Virus record (IMG/VR): IMGVR_UViG_3300012954_000058
Coordinates: 1 to 27,109 of that record
DNA: 27,109 nt
From: a virus
Reading direction: 5' to 3' (one strand)
Positions 2,472 through 16,773 of this stretch are shown one piece after another (position 1 is the first letter of the stretch; every line of letters starts with the position of its first letter). The position numbers and the translations under genes were made by a program. Under the pieces are notes generated by a model. That model searched no databases. It worked only from the letters and a program-made list of their open reading frames with translations, and was not told where the DNA came from.

Positions 2472-3379
2472 TTAATTCGTTCCATCCAAACGTTAATAGA
2501 ACCAGAGGTTCCAAATATACCATTCATTGTAAGGTTATTTAATTCACCATCATCAATGAAAGACAATCCTACCTGCCCTGAATAATTACCATTAAATGTA
2601 ACACATTCATAAAGTGTTAAATTATGAAGGTTATTACCTGTGTTATTAGATAAGGAGTAAGTGTTAGGGTTTGAACCATTTATATCGTAAGACACACCAC
2701 TATTGAAATTAATTGTATCATTAGGGTAGACTGGAGTCATCCCATTATCATATCTAGTTATGACCCATGAAGTACCAGTTAACTGTAAGTGACCAGGAAC
2801 ATCTGAAGAAACCAAACTTACTGTACCACCATATTCGTAATTAAATTCACTAGTATACACACATGAAGGACAACTATAACCACTCTTTACAAAAGTTAAT
2901 ACAGTGTAGTAGTGGTAATTATCACCATGATTAGATTCATTGGATTCATATATTTGTACATGAAGTACATTTTCATCAAAATCTAAAATCCCTAAACTTC
3001 GAGAGGAACCATAAGGAGGTATACCTAAAAGTTTATATTGTTTTCTACTACCACTCCCATGGGTATCGTAATCATAAGTGTTACCGTTATCTAATGTAAA
3101 TGTACCATCTTCAAAATACCAAGTAGTGACATTTTGTTCTATGTTGTCAACATCTACCAAAGAACCACCAAATATATCTAAATTAGACGTAGTTTGATTA
3201 TCGTCAAAGTGGTCATAATAAGTTAATTCTCCAGTAGTCAAATTTTCAGTATAAACTCTACCGTTTACTAAAATCCACTCAGTTCCTTCGATAGTTGGGA
3301 TATCGACATCAAACTCATATTTTTCACAACTAGTGAAAACTAAACTTAATAAGGTGAGGTATAAAAAAATTTTATTCAT
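2468..3379 (-). CDS. Predicted lipoprotein with two lipocalin-like/beta-rich repeats
   Basis: This 303-aa protein starts with a classic lipoprotein signal: MNK, a hydrophobic core, and the lipobox FTSC with Cys18 as the expected lipidated residue. The residues after the Cys are charged (EKYEFDVD). In Bacteroidota, acidic residues just after the Cys can direct surface display, but the match to that signal is only partial. The mature part seems to contain two related beta-rich units, beginning GTEWILVNGR (about residue 31) and GTSWVITRYD (about residue 202), reminiscent of lipocalin-like domains in Bacteroidota lipoproteins. It has a strong host-type promoter (3453-3422), so early or lysogenic-type expression is plausible. 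A role at the host envelope, such as receptor masking or superinfection exclusion, is inference; the family is not identified. Confidence 0.85.
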   Translation of the reverse strand: MNKIFLYLTLLSLVFTSCEKYEFDVDIPTIEGTEWILVNGRVYTENLTTGELTYYDHFDDNQTTSNLDIFGGSLVDVDNIEQNVTTWYFEDGTFTLDNGNTYDYDTHGSGSRKQYKLLGIPPYGSSRSLGILDFDENVLHVQIYESNESNHGDNYHYYTVLTFVKSGYSCPSCVYTSEFNYEYGGTVSLVSSDVPGHLQLTGTSWVITRYDNGMTPVYPNDTINFNSGVSYDINGSNPNTYSLSNNTGNNLHNLTLYECVTFNGNYSGQVGLSFIDDGELNNLTMNGIFGTSGSINVWMERIN

Positions 3380-8534: not shown

Positions 8535-8943
8535 TGGTGGAGATGGGGGGAATCGAACCCCCGTCTTGTCCATTGTCTATCGTACCTATCCTACACGCTT
8601 AGTTTATTCTTTTATCCTCGGACTTACCCTTCTAGAATAAACAACCATCCAGAAGCCCCAACCATAATGTTATTTAACCACCTTAATGGTATTGGTGCGT
8701 TCGATTTGTCTGTCGACACCTCATATACTAAAGACACAAATCTTAAATTCTTTAGACGAGATGGAGCCTTAGTCGTAATTTAATTACGCTACAGCCACAG
8801 TTGACTCCTCACGGACAAGACCGAGAGTTGTCATAGTATCTAATACGTTGCCGATTAGAAGTATAAACCAGTTTTACAAGGTTAGTTTAGCCTCGACGTG
8901 CTGATATCAATCAAACTAACGTCAATCAATTCCAGTCATCCCC
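8535..8943 (-). ncRNA. ssrA: Transfer-messenger RNA (tmRNA) with a 22-codon tag
   Basis: The 5' end (GGGGATGACTGG...) and 3' end (CATCTCCACCA) form a 7-bp acceptor stem with a G3-U70 pair, the alanine identity element. The T-arm (GGGGG TTCGATT CCCCC) is canonical and CCA is encoded. The tag frame fits the context TAATC-GGC-AAC, close to the E. coli resume site TAGTC-GCA-AAC, so GGC at 8852-8850 is taken as the resume codon. The frame runs 22 codons (starts GNVLD, ends STVAVA) to TAA at 8786-8784. The stop lies in a hairpin (GTAATTAAATTAC), as in helix 5 of known tmRNAs. Usual Bacteroidota tags, as I recall them, are short and end in LAA or similar; this one is long and ends in AVA. It would rescue stalled ribosomes and mark their products for proteolysis. 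Confidence 0.95.
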
Positions 8944-9077: not shown

Positions 9078-9085
9078 ATATTTAG

Positions 9086-9159
9086 TACACCCGATAGGAG
9101 TCGAACCTATGACCTACTGCTTAGAAGGCAGTTGCTCTATCCAGCTGAGCTACGGGTGC
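9086..9159 (-). tRNA. tRNA-Arg(UCU)
   Basis: A full cloverleaf is visible: acceptor GCACCCG/CGGGTGT, D-arm GCTC/GAGC with loop AGCTGGATA, anticodon stem ACTGC/GCAGT with loop CTTCTAA (anticodon TCT), and T-arm ATAGG TTCGACT CCTAT. CCA is not encoded. It reads AGA, the Arg codon most used by the surrounding AT-rich genes. It sits 8 nt from the next tRNA-like gene and 7 nt from tRNA-Leu. Confidence 0.97.
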
Positions 9160-9166
9160 ATTTGGG

Positions 9167-9251
9167 TACTCGGGGCGGGAATCGAACCCGCACGGCCACA
9201 ATGGCCAAGGGATTTTAAGTCCCTCGTGTCTACCTATTCCACCACCCGAGC
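9167..9251 (-). tRNA. tRNA-Leu(UAA)
   Basis: This is an 85-nt class II tRNA: acceptor GCTCGGG/CCCGAGT, anticodon stem AGGGA/TCCCT with loop CTTAAAA (anticodon TAA), a long variable arm (GGCCATTGTGGCC) and T-arm GCGGG TTCGATT CCCGC. CCA is not encoded. It reads UUA, the dominant Leu codon of these genes, and is the first gene of the minus-strand RNA operon. Confidence 0.97.
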
Positions 9252-9274
9252 ATGTTTGTGTGATGAATACATGA

Positions 9275-12000: not shown

Positions 12001-12432
12001 ATGGGAATTAGAGCAATATATGGTGTAGAATGGTGTGCCAAAATAGAAAAAGTTTTTGGTGGACGAGCAAAAGATGGACCTCACCATATAAGAAGTTTTA
12101 TGGGTCATGAATTAGAGACTTGTAGTGAAGGTGGGAGTTGTAATGCCATATCTTTAAAATCTAGTAAATCGGACTGTGAGAATAAATTAGGTCCTTGTGC
12201 AAGTACTACATGTAGTACTTTTTATAGTAATCAGTCAAACCCTTGTTTACTTAATACGGGTGATTACATATACGAAACTAGTGAATGTGTATGTACTGAA
12301 ACCTCAAAAACATTCCCAGCCTACTTTTCAAATGGAACAAGTAAGGTAGGTTGCCCAACATGTGAAGAAGGACAAATAGGGTGTTTTGCCAGAAATGAAG
12401 ACACCTGTCAAGTAACTAAAGTATCTTGTTAA
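12001..12432 (+). CDS. Small protein with 14 cysteines
   Basis: The 143-aa product has 14 Cys, mostly in the last 105 residues, in spacings such as ECVC and CPTC, with no signal peptide. The even number and the spacing suggest disulfides or metal sites; I cannot name the fold. Starting one base after the fibre-like gene, it is probably co-expressed with it and may be a virion surface component. The stop overlaps that of the convergent clp gene in a 4-bp TTAA. Confidence 0.75.
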   Translation: MGIRAIYGVEWCAKIEKVFGGRAKDGPHHIRSFMGHELETCSEGGSCNAISLKSSKSDCENKLGPCASTTCSTFYSNQSNPCLLNTGDYIYETSECVCTETSKTFPAYFSNGTSKVGCPTCEEGQIGCFARNEDTCQVTKVSC

Positions 12433-14465
12433 ACTGTAGTCACTAAAACATTATTATCTTTATCTACACTTAAAGAGTAATGAACATCTTCTAGAATTTC
12501 ACCTTTTAAAATATTTTCAGAAATAAAATCTTCTACTTTATTTTGAATTGCTCTTTTAATCGGTCTAGCACCAAATTTTTCATCATATCCCTCTTCAACA
12601 ATATATTTAGTCAATGAATTATCAAAAACAACATTGTAGTTTTTTTCAATTAACCTATCCTGTAATGATTTTAATTCTAATTTAACAATTTTGGATATTA
12701 CTCTTTTTTGTAATGGTTTAAATACGACAGTCTGGTCTATTCTATTTAAGAATTCTGGTCTAAATGTATTTTTTAAAGCTTTTTTAATAATAGCTTCCTT
12801 TTTTTCTTCCATTCTAGATTCAGTGTCTTTAGTGGAAAAACCTAAGGGTTTATTGAACTCTGAAACTTGTTTAGCTCCTACGTTAGAGGTCATGATAAGT
12901 AGAGTATTTTTAAAGTTAATTTTTCTACCTAAACCGTCCGTAATATGTCCATCGTCAAATATTTGAAGTAATAAATCGTAGATATCGGAATGTGCTTTTT
13001 CAATTTCATCTAATAAAATTACCGAGTAAGGTTTTTTTCTAACAGCTTCCGTTAATTGACCACCTTCATTGTACCCAACGTATCCAGGAGGTGAACCAAT
13101 TAATCTGGTAGAATTAAACTTTTCTTTATATTCAGACATATCTAATCTAATTAAGGCATCTTCACTACCAAAAATTTCTTTTGCTATAGCTTTAGCTAAA
13201 TGAGTTTTACCTACACCTGTGGAACCTAAAAACATGAAAGAACCTATCGGTTTTTTTACTTCACGAATACCCACCCTATTCCTACGAATGGCTTTTGCTA
13301 TTTTTTTAATAGCTTCATCTTGACCTATCACTAACTTTTGTAAAGACTTCTCTAAGTTTAACAAATTTTTAGTTTCGTTACTATCTAACTTGGTTAAGGG
13401 AATTTTAGTTATTTGTGATACCACTTCATAAATGTCTTCTTCAGTAACGTCAATCCTACTTTCTTCCATTTCTATTTCCCACTCTAGTTTTTTAGTGTCT
13501 AAAAGAGAAACTACATTTTTTTCTTCATCTCTTAATTCCGCTGCTTTTTCATATTTTTGTGATTTTACCACCTCTACTTTCTCTAATTTTAAATTAGCTA
13601 ATTTAGTTCTTAAGTCTTCTATTTCCTTAGGAAAAGCAACATCTACTTGTACTTTAGCTCCAACCTCATCCATAATATCTATAGCTTTATCAGGAAATTC
13701 TCTATGGGTTATATATCTTTCAGCTAACATAACACAAGCTGATAATGAATCGTCAGTAAAACTAACTTTATGGTGGTCCTCATACCTCTCTTTAAGATTT
13801 TTTAAAATCTGTAAAGTTTCTTCCATAGTTGTCGGTTCTACCATAACTTTTTGAAATCTCCTCTCTAAAGCACCATCTTTTTCTATATTTTCACGATACT
13901 CATCAATAGTTGTAGCTCCAATACATTGGACTTCACCTCTCGCTAAAGCGGGTTTAAAAATATTAGCAGCGTCCAAAGCACCAGAGGCATTTCCAGTACC
14001 CACAACAGTATGAATCTCATCTATAAAAATTATAATATCTTCATTATCTTTTAATTCATCTATAATAGCTTTCATTCTTTCCTCAAACTGACCACGATAT
14101 TTTGTACCCGCAACAATAGAAGTTAAATCCAAACCTATAATTTTTTTATCTAATAGGTTTCTAGGACACCTACCCTCACTAATTTTAATAGCTAACCCCT
14201 CTACTAAAGCGGTTTTACCACATCCAGGTTCACCAATTAAAACAGGGTTATTCTTTTTTCTTCTAGAAAGTATTTGAGCTATTCTATTTATTTCCGCTTC
14301 TCTACCTACTACAGGGTCTAATTTACCCTCTTCCGCATATTGTATTAAATCTCTAGAAAAATTATCTAAAACTGGTGTTCTACTTTTAATATTACTTTTT
14401 TCTTTTCTTGGTTTACTCTTAGAGTCGTCTGACTCGAAGTCGGCAAAATTTCCTTCTAATCTCAT
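12429..14465 (-). CDS. ClpC-like AAA+ unfoldase lacking the N-domain
   Basis: The 678-aa product has both Clp ATPase modules. AAA-1: Walker A GEPGCGKT (78-85), Walker B IFIDE (146-150), Arg finger ERRF (201-204). Middle: a short UVR-type helix (KYEKAAELRDEE, about 304-315) as in ClpC/ClpE. AAA-2: Walker A GSTGVGKT (414-421), Walker B ILLDE (483-487), sensor-2 GARP (632-635). LGF at 541-543, in the place of the ClpP-docking loop, suggests it hands substrates to ClpP. ClpC is normally over 800 aa with an adaptor-binding N-domain; here a stop lies seven codons before the ATG and about 30 charged, likely disordered residues replace that domain. No ClpP is in the window, so host ClpP would be the partner. 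It is divergent from dnaK. Confidence 0.93.
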   Translation of the reverse strand: MRLEGNFADFESDDSKSKPRKEKSNIKSRTPVLDNFSRDLIQYAEEGKLDPVVGREAEINRIAQILSRRKKNNPVLIGEPGCGKTALVEGLAIKISEGRCPRNLLDKKIIGLDLTSIVAGTKYRGQFEERMKAIIDELKDNEDIIIFIDEIHTVVGTGNASGALDAANIFKPALARGEVQCIGATTIDEYRENIEKDGALERRFQKVMVEPTTMEETLQILKNLKERYEDHHKVSFTDDSLSACVMLAERYITHREFPDKAIDIMDEVGAKVQVDVAFPKEIEDLRTKLANLKLEKVEVVKSQKYEKAAELRDEEKNVVSLLDTKKLEWEIEMEESRIDVTEEDIYEVVSQITKIPLTKLDSNETKNLLNLEKSLQKLVIGQDEAIKKIAKAIRRNRVGIREVKKPIGSFMFLGSTGVGKTHLAKAIAKEIFGSEDALIRLDMSEYKEKFNSTRLIGSPPGYVGYNEGGQLTEAVRKKPYSVILLDEIEKAHSDIYDLLLQIFDDGHITDGLGRKINFKNTLLIMTSNVGAKQVSEFNKPLGFSTKDTESRMEEKKEAIIKKALKNTFRPEFLNRIDQTVVFKPLQKRVISKIVKLELKSLQDRLIEKNYNVVFDNSLTKYIVEEGYDEKFGARPIKRAIQNKVEDFISENILKGEILEDVHYSLSVDKDNNVLVTTV

Positions 14466-14494: not shown

Positions 14495-14525
14495 CAATTA
14501 TACTACCAATAATCTTAATAATCAA
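14495..14525 (-). promoter_or_regulatory. Weak host-type promoter candidate for clp
   Basis: On the minus strand, TTG (14525-14523), 20 nt and TATAATTG (14502-14495) differ from the host consensus at one -7 position. The TGTC/GACA element array begins 4 nt upstream of the -33. Confidence 0.4.
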
Positions 14526-14529
14526 CCAT

Positions 14530-14563
14530 TGTCGTTGTGACATGTCCTCATGACAAAATGTCA
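14530..14563. promoter_or_regulatory. Tandem TGTC-N5-GACA inverted repeats between clp and dnaK
   Basis: Two back-to-back 13-bp units, TGTC-gttgt-GACA (14530-14542) and TGTC-ctcat-GACA (14543-14555), are followed by a further TGTCA so that TGACA-AAA-TGTCA (14551-14563) forms another perfect inverted repeat. The junction makes the palindrome GACATGTC. The position between two divergent chaperone genes suggests an operator shared by both. It is not the CIRCE sequence (TTAGCACTC-N9-GAGTGCTAA). Confidence 0.6.
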
Positions 14564-14594
14564 GTATTTTTTTAATGGTACACTATTTGACTAC

Positions 14595-14624
14595 TTGATT
14601 TAATGAAAAGTATTAATATATTTT
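14595..14624 (+). promoter_or_regulatory. Weak host-type promoter candidate for dnaK
   Basis: TTG (14595-14597), 19 nt and TATATTTT (14617-14624) match the host consensus except for the last base. Transcription would start about 35 nt before the ATG at 14664. Confidence 0.35.
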
Positions 14625-14663: not shown

Positions 14664-16526
14664 ATGGGAAAAGTAATTGGTATAGATTTAGGAACGACAA
14701 ATTCCTGTGTTGCCGTAATAGAAGGTAACGAACCTAAAGTTATTGTTAATGGTGAAGGTCAAAGAACCACACCATCCGTAGTAGCTTTTAAAAATAAAGG
14801 AGAAAGAGTAGTTGGTGACCCAGCTAAACGACAAGCGGTCACTAATCCTGAAAAAACTATCTACTCAGTAAAAAGATTTATGGGTAGTACCTACTCAGAA
14901 ATTAAAAAAGAGGCAAGTAAGATGCCCTACAAAGTATCAAAAATAAATAATAACGGTATCGGTATAGAAATAGACGATACTAAATACATTCCACAAGAAA
15001 TTTCAGCTGTGGTACTACAAAATCTTAAAAAAACAGCAGAAGAATATCTCGGTGAAACCGTAACAGATGCGGTTATTACCGTACCAGCTTATTTTAATGA
15101 TTCACAAAGAAACGCAACTAAAGAAGCTGGAGAAATTGCTGGATTAAATGTTCTAAGAATTATAAACGAACCAACCGCAGCTTCACTAGCTTATGGTCTT
15201 GACGATAATAAAGATAAAAAAGTTGTGGTATACGATTTAGGTGGTGGTACTTTTGATGTTTCCATTTTAGAAATGGGTGACGGTGTTTTTGAAGTATTAT
15301 CAACAAATGGTGACACTCATTTGGGAGGTGATAATTTTGATGAAATAATTATGGATTGGATAATTGAACAATTCAAAAAAGAAAACGGTGTTGATGTGAG
15401 TAAAGACCCAATGGCTTTACAAAGAATTAAAGAATCCGCTGAAAAAGCAAAAGTAGAACTATCTTCATCATCAAGTACAGAAATTAACTTACCTTATTTG
15501 ACCGCGGACTCTAATGGTCCTAAACACTTGGTTATGTCTTTATCTCGTTCTAAATTTGAAACTATGGTTGCTGACTTAGTTAAAAGAAGTATTAAACCTT
15601 GTGATAAAGCTCTTAAAGATGCTAAACTTAAGGTTGATGATATTGATGAAGTAATTTTAGTTGGTGGTTCTACAAGAATACCTATAATACAAGAATCAGT
15701 AGAAAAGTTTTTTAACCGTAAACCATCTAAGGGTGTAAATCCAGATGAGGTAGTAGCTATGGGAGCCGCTATTCAGGGTGGTGTATTATCTGGAGATGTA
15801 AATGACGTGTTATTATTAGACGTTACCCCACTTTCACTCGGTATCGAAACAATGGGAGGGGTTATGACACCACTTATTGAGTCTAACAGTACAATCCCAA
15901 CATCTAAGTCACAGGTATTCTCTACAGCAGTAGACAACCAACCATCTGTAGATATACATGTTTTACAAGGTGAAAGACCTATGGCTGTGGACAATAGAAG
16001 TCTAGGAAGATTCCAACTAACGGACATACCACCATCACCTAGAGGTATCCCACAAATTGAAGTGACTTTCGATATTGACGCTAATGGTATTATTAGTGTA
16101 AGTGCAAAAGATAAAGGTACTGGAAAATCTCAGAATATTAAAATTGAATCTGGAGGTACTTTATCGGATGAAGAAATCGAAAGAATGAAAATGGAAGCTG
16201 AACAAAACCAAGCTAAAGACCAGGAAAAAAAGGAAAAAGTGGAAAAGTTAAATGAGGCTGACACCATGATTTTCCAAACCGAAAAACAAATAAAGGAGTT
16301 TGGTGATAAGTTGAGTGATGAAGATAAAGAAAAGTTGACACAATCTCTGGATAAACTTAAAGAATCTCACAAGAGTGAAAATTTAGAATTGATAGAGGAG
16401 TGTTTAAAAAATCTTAACGAAGAATGGCAATCAATATCGACTAAAATGTATGAACAAACAGAACAACCACAAGAAGGTAGTGATAAAGAAGAGACAACTG
16501 ATGTTGAATACGAAGAAGTGAAATAA
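14664..16526 (+). CDS. dnaK: Hsp70 chaperone DnaK, full length
   Basis: The 620-aa product has all DnaK landmarks: phosphate-1 loop [14 protein letters not shown] (about 5-18), phosphate-2 [11 protein letters not shown] (about 190-200), adenosine motif LVGGSTRIP (about 331-341), the interdomain linker [12 protein letters not shown] (from about 382), a substrate-binding beta domain, a helical lid and the canonical C-terminal EEVK. ATP-driven cycles of binding unfold or protect client proteins, with DnaJ and GrpE as partners; neither partner is in the window. It is intact with no sign of decay, and reads like a bacterial DnaK taken from a host. It diverges from clp across the TGTC/GACA array and is followed after one base by the KTSC gene. 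Confidence 0.97.
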
Positions 16527-16527
16527 T

Positions 16528-16773
16528 ATGGGAGTGTTATCAGAAATATATAGTGGTGATAGAATTATTAACCAATACAAGTCTTCTAATATTAAAGGTT
16601 CAATATATAATAAAACCACTAAAAAATTAATAGTCGAATTTAATTCTGGACGTAAATACGAATATGAGGATGTAGATAGTAATACCGCTGCTGGATTAAG
16701 AATAGCTAAAAGTCAAGGTAGTTACTTCAACAAACAAATAGCAAAAAAGTATAAATATAAATTACTTGACTAA
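16528..16773 (+). CDS. KTSC-domain protein
   Basis: The 81-aa product matches the KTSC domain: a beta strand IVEFNSGRKYEYEDV, then helix TAAGLRIAKSQGSYFNKQI and the terminal KKYKYK. The domain is named for its occurrence at the C-terminus of a lysyl-tRNA synthetase and is common as a stand-alone phage protein; its function is not established to my knowledge. It starts one base after the dnaK stop and is probably on the same transcript. Confidence 0.8.
   Translation: MGVLSEIYSGDRIINQYKSSNIKGSIYNKTTKKLIVEFNSGRKYEYEDVDSNTAAGLRIAKSQGSYFNKQIAKKYKYKLLD

Follow-up and report, generated by a model that had tools for sequence, protein, structure and literature searches.

The window, i.e. the whole stretch of DNA that was analysed, is an entire IMG/VR virus record of 27,109 bp. 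It encodes a T4-type portal gene and contains a clp gene and a dnaK gene in divergent orientation, separated by a gap of 198 bp. The features of this locus are as follows (gene assignments by Pfam).

12429-14465, minus strand: clp gene, ClpC/ClpA-like, with two AAA+ domains and a UVR motif
14497-14525, minus strand: sigmaA-like clp promoter, TTGATT-N17-TATAAT, its -33 TTG 4 bp from the second operator
14530-14542, no strand: second, weaker operator TGTCGTTGTGACA (TGTCACAACGACA on the clp strand), its position kept in relatives, its sequence degenerate
14543-14555, no strand: middle dyad TGTCCTCATGACA of the earlier note, present, not conserved
14551-14563, no strand: main operator, the perfect 13-bp dyad TGACA-AAA-TGTCA, kept in all close relatives (alignment) and in distant loci
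14576-14591, plus strand: sigma54-like dnaK box TGGTACACTATTTGAC of the -24/-12 type, 12 bp from the main operator, identified by its invariant core, phasing and host likeness
14595-14622, plus strand: possible extra dnaK promoter of the sigma70/sigmaA type, TTGATT-N16-TATATT, from a consensus scan, kept in close relatives only
14664-16526, plus strand: dnaK gene (Hsp70)

A KTSC-domain gene (16528-16773) lies immediately downstream of dnaK. A tmRNA gene and then tRNA-Arg and tRNA-Leu genes are located on the minus strand (8535-8943 and 9085-9252), in a phage that also has its own Clp ATPase. An RNA-element search of the window retrieved nothing beyond the tmRNA and tRNAs, and no terminator was found in the clp/dnaK gap.

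The conserved unit in related phages

The earlier note on this DNA described two exact back-to-back 13-bp dyads of the form TGTC-N5-GACA plus a third half-site. These are present as TGTCGTTGTGACA (14530-14542) and TGTCCTCATGACA (14543-14555), followed by AAA and TGTCA (14559-14563), and the whole window has no further exact TGTC-N5-GACA site. Among 20,000 dinucleotide-shuffled versions of the gap, none contains the tandem pair and 6 contain TGACA-N3-TGTCA.

Relatives were collected via clp and dnaK and their intergenic gaps were compared. The tandem 13-mers are not conserved as a unit in these relatives, and a scan of IMG/VR for the tandem TGTC-N5-GACA pattern gave two other contigs only. TGTC-N5-GACA as the conserved unit is not supported by the gaps of the relatives, their alignment and a spacing survey; the unit that is conserved is TGACA-N3-TGTCA, accompanied on the clp side by a second, weaker site at a distance of 21-22 or 30-32 bp. 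In the window this distance is 21 bp, or two helical turns. The left half of the middle dyad (14543-14555) varies in the alignment (TGTC, CATA, TGTA, TTAA or ATAC), and this dyad is, judging from the sequence, a by-product of the juxtaposed neighbouring half-sites.

In the spacing survey, covering 1.33 Mb of related loci, 45 unique copies of TGACA/TGTCA have a spacing of 3, against 0-3 copies at each other spacing from 0 to 15. The dyad occurs at 43 sites in 26 whole records, and a reversed control pattern at none. Nearly all dyads are found between divergent clp and dnaK genes, between clp and an hsp20 or UVR-motif gene, or before a dnaK or hsp20-like gene standing alone at another site of the same phage. 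It had been proposed to search for the dyad elsewhere, with conservation in related phages or hosts as the touchstone, and such conservation is seen: the dyad recurs upstream of dnaK, clp, hsp20 and groEL/ES in related phages and of dnaK, htpG, clpB and groES in hosts.

Several individual loci were also recorded. In viral contigs, groEL is found under a dyad element in L283, L313, L361 and L386, and groES in L344 and L384. In L128:2401-2844, L142:3110-3577 and many clp-adjacent loci, the gene divergent from clp under a dyad element encodes a small UVR-motif protein of ~150 aa with two UVR stretches. This protein may be a phage Clp adaptor by analogy with McsA and ClpC, in which UVR motifs are also found. 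A phage sigma70-family factor (L131:2189-2983, dyad at 3039) shows the layout of dyad, 12 bp and TGGTAY, as does a second locus (L326). With a sigma-factor gene under the dyad, a host stress signal may feed into the phage transcription cascade. Clusters of TGACA-N3-TGTCA without a sigma54-like box are located near small genes of a look-alike family with a motif resembling Y.G.C.Y (L136:2927, L139:2980, L141:2998-4051 and L144:2979-3876).

A sigma54-like box in helical phase with the dyad

The gap had been described as otherwise featureless, but it carries conserved promoter elements on both sides, and what gives the dyad its meaning, a sigma54-like box in phase with it, had been overlooked. 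On the dnaK/hsp20 side, a TGGYAYR-N4-TTG box is located 11-13 bp (21 loci), 22-24 bp (6 loci), 33-34 bp (3 loci) or 43-44 bp (7 loci) from the operator end, so that 37 of the 39 loci fall into classes running from 11-13 up to 43-44 bp. On the clp side, the same box is found in 0 of 36. The distances follow a helical repeat of ~10.6 bp (Rayleigh p ~2e-14, or 7e-6 when the 12-bp class is left out), values that are overstated since the loci are related.

The box was fixed as TGGYAY in the searches, so its GG and A are invariant by design, and the phage loci are not independent. With that in mind, position +6 is R in 35/39 loci; in the -12 element, +11 is T in 38/39, +13 is G in 31/39 and +14 is C in only 5/39. 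In the window, the -24 element reads TGGTAC and the -12 element TTGAC, and the alignment of relatives shows TGGTA and TATTTGA of this box to be invariant. The GG and G are spaced as in sigma54 -24/-12 elements, while the canonical -12 C is mostly absent in the phages and the window box fits only ~8/12 sigma54 positions.

The missing -12 C could mean that the box is a promoter element of unknown type or the site of a second factor, with dnaK being transcribed via sigmaA, and the TTGATT-N16-TATATT downstream in the window and its close relatives would suit such an arrangement. This is distinctly unlikely, given that the spacing of GG and G is that of sigma54 and that host promoters of like layout, which read TTGGCAY-N5-TTGCT/TTGTT, fall into the sigma54 class established by mapping in Flavobacterium.

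IMG/VR was then scanned without any gene query for the dyad plus box at set distances, and the downstream proteins were typed by Pfam. At N11-13, 74 of the 92 downstream proteins among the matches listed are of chaperone type (HSP20 25, HSP70 24, UVR 19, Cpn60 4, Cpn10 2), and one further protein of the 92 is a sigma70 factor. At N22-24, this holds for 41/74 among the matches listed (HSP20 20, UVR 19, HSP70 2). Half a turn off, at N16-18, only 3/64 among the matches listed are of this type (HSP70 2, UVR 1; Pfam). By BLAST to chaperone references, the counts among the matches listed are 0/95 at N27-29 and 1/102 when the dyad spacer is four bases (N4). The broad Hsp20 labels given by BLAST were dropped, as Pfam divides them into HSP20 and UVR-motif proteins. 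The -12 T, which lies outside the search pattern, is found in 83/108 and 57/103 of the matches listed in phase, versus 30/102 and 25/95 in the sets compared with them.

An inverted repeat upstream of a sigma54-like promoter, as expected for an enhancer-binding-protein site, is thus what is seen here. NtrC/NorR-type sites are likewise short inverted repeats upstream of sigma54 promoters, often in more than one copy, and NorR sites have a similar size and an N3 spacing. They differ in being further upstream and in half-site order, which is TGACA...TGTCA here. Enhancer sites are commonly found at -80 to -150; in 37 of the 39 loci, the dyad lies outside this range, its centre being at ~-45 to -77 relative to the sigma54-like promoters (~-45 in the window).

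The clp-side promoter and known heat-shock operators

On the opposite side, most loci have an operator separated by 3-6 bp from the sigmaA-like -33 TTG that follows it, with TATAAT or the Bacteroidota-type TAnnTTTG further downstream; the operator centre is at ~-42. The operators probably modulate this clp sigmaA promoter. The idea that one regulator controls both chaperone genes stands insofar as a regulator-type dyad serves genes on both sides; the half-site arithmetic behind it does not.

Since the sites abut the clp -33 element in most loci and repressors classically act on divergent chaperone genes, the dyad could also be a heat-shock repressor operator that represses both clp and dnaK with HrcA-, HspR- or CtsR-like logic. 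CIRCE/HrcA, the CtsR box and the HspR HAIR element are repeats before chaperone genes as well, yet they differ in sequence and geometry. As already stated in the earlier note, the dyad is not CIRCE: TTAGCACTC-N9-GAGTGCTAA has 0 matches with up to 3 mismatches allowed. HAIR (CTTGAGT-N7-ACTCAAG) is not found near the gap, its total in the window being at chance level, and the CtsR direct repeat GGTCAAA-N3-GGTCAAA is not found in the gap and is likewise at chance level. Moreover, the sites lie upstream of the dnaK box and not over it, at distances from 12 to 44 bp that keep strictly to the helical phase, which suggests polymerase contact, and the host chaperone promoters are of the sigma54 type, which needs an activator. 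Repression is therefore an unlikely function.

Host chaperone promoters and the proposed regulator

According to PMC9723704, groES-EL, dnaK, grpE-dnaJ, htpG, lon and clpB of Flavobacterium psychrophilum have sigma54 promoters by TSS mapping. The genome encodes three sigma54 activators, of which THC0290_0733 is near groES (0729) by locus number (PMC9723704). Bacteroidota chaperone genes are enriched in sigma54 promoters (PMC12316311). This sigma54 (RpoN) chaperone regulon (F. psychrophilum SM4; PMC9723704, PMC12316311) resembles the phage system in its targets (dnaK, groESL, htpG, clpB and hsp20) and in its box, TGGCAYR-N4-TTG. Phage boxes differ in often reading TGGTAY and in mostly missing the -12 C. 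The accessible sections of both papers give no activator site, whereas a defined, phased dyad is seen here, also in phages. No published activator site at Bacteroidota chaperone promoters was found, and a full-text literature search for the dyad gave no relevant match.

The closest cellular DnaKs in the collection are from Bacteroidota. Host promoters were sampled in 1.53 Mb of Bacteroides, Phocaeicola, Parabacteroides, Prevotella and Riemerella DNA, from the Bacteroidota records of a plasmid collection. This sample contains five cases in which WWWTGTCA precedes TGGCAY-N5-TYG by no more than 90 bp. All five are at htpG or dnaK, with distances of 12, 14, 21, 22 and 43 bp. Parabacteroides clpB has AGACAAAATGTCA 11 bp before TGGTAT, and TGTCA is found at 21 bp in Prevotella groES and at 23 bp in Parabacteroides htpG. 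The layout is thus present at the chaperone targets htpG, dnaK, clpB and groES, in Bacteroides, Phocaeicola, Parabacteroides and Prevotella. The first three host records contain no exact TGACA-N3-TGTCA; host copies are degenerate in one half. A scan of genome contigs matched a single Bdellovibrionales MAG, without the dyad at its dnaK. Upstream regions of host clpC (L151, L153, L155 and L156) have a sigma54-like box without the dyad, several with a sigmaA-like box downstream.

Dyad versions with two mismatches are at chance level in the window, as they would be for a chance or purely local palindrome devoid of function. Such an origin is hardly credible, being contradicted by the spacing survey, the reversed control, the host scan, the -12 T enrichment and the Pfam typing of the scans.

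No sigma54 gene was found in the phage records searched and no enhancer-binding protein (PF00158) in 26 phage records; therefore, both would be the host's. In Parabacteroides, a PF00158 protein was considered as the chaperone activator and dropped, as it sits with a kinase and ABC permeases and gives no sign of such a role. The region (NZ_OY725812.1, 97971-118173) has several sigma54-like boxes, FtsX-type ABC permeases, a kinase and a PF00158 response regulator.

Alternatively, the protein on the dyad might be an auxiliary activator of another kind, with the enhancer-binding protein acting from elsewhere or from solution; this auxiliary factor may also serve clp as a class II activator at its sigmaA promoter. 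A precedent is Borrelia BosR beside a sigma54 promoter, as described in the accessible part of PMC3037356. The operator centres, ~-45 for the sigma54-like promoter and ~-42 for the sigmaA-like one, resemble class I/II activator geometry, and the 1.77-Mb Prevotella replicon record with the groES element contains RpoN and no PF00158 protein. Two factors would be needed, no candidate was found for the auxiliary one, and short-range phasing is equally expected of an enhancer-binding protein on stiff DNA, which makes this arrangement rather unlikely.

The best explanation, with a probability of about 60%, is that the phage chaperones are under the host sigma54 chaperone regulon and that the dyad serves their activation, probably by a host enhancer-binding protein, in the manner of an enhancer-type or class I/II site at a sigma54 chaperone promoter. 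Against it speak the mostly missing -12 C, the short distance between dyad and box, the possible extra sigmaA promoter of dnaK in the window, and the Prevotella record with RpoN and the groES element in which no PF00158 protein was found. The conservation of the dyad, its phasing to the box, its gene specificity and the matching host layout are observed; sigma54 use in this phage, the identity and sign of the regulator, its effect on clp and the timing during infection are inferred. Membership of the sigma54 class is probable for the host genes and likely for the window promoter, and the sequence suggests the dyad as a candidate binding site for a host regulator. A dimeric host regulator, most likely the enhancer-binding protein of the host sigma54 heat-shock/chaperone regulon, would occupy a single face of the DNA by binding TGACA-N3-TGTCA and, 21 bp from it, the weaker operator. 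Once bound, it would activate the sigma54 form of host RNA polymerase at the -24/-12-like box, which lies at a distance of 12 bp, leading to transcription of the phage dnaK; in other phages, the activated gene would be an hsp20, UVR-motif, groEL/groES or sigma factor gene. The operators directly upstream of the clp -33 element would act on clp from the same position.

Huge Bacteroidota 'moraphages' are similar in being large phages with dnaK, hsp20 and ClpA-type genes, and their DnaK is of host (Bacteroidota) origin; the accessible part of that paper treats the chaperone genes and does not describe their regulation (PMC12619734). We give even odds to the wider proposal that TGACA-N3-TGTCA is the undescribed site of the Bacteroidota master heat-shock activator, unusually near its sigma54 promoters and strictly phased, and that many large phages adopted it for Hsp70, Hsp20, chaperonin, Clp-adaptor-like and sigma-factor genes. 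If so, the regulator could be fished out with one oligonucleotide, the phage dyads being cleaner than the host copies and offering a precisely defined bait of 13 bp together with a rule for the spacing. A host-type switch before phage heat-shock genes suggests that the host stress response runs the phage chaperones. Their synthesis would then track the host protein-stress response during infection, and large phages would sense the stress state of the host to time their own chaperones.
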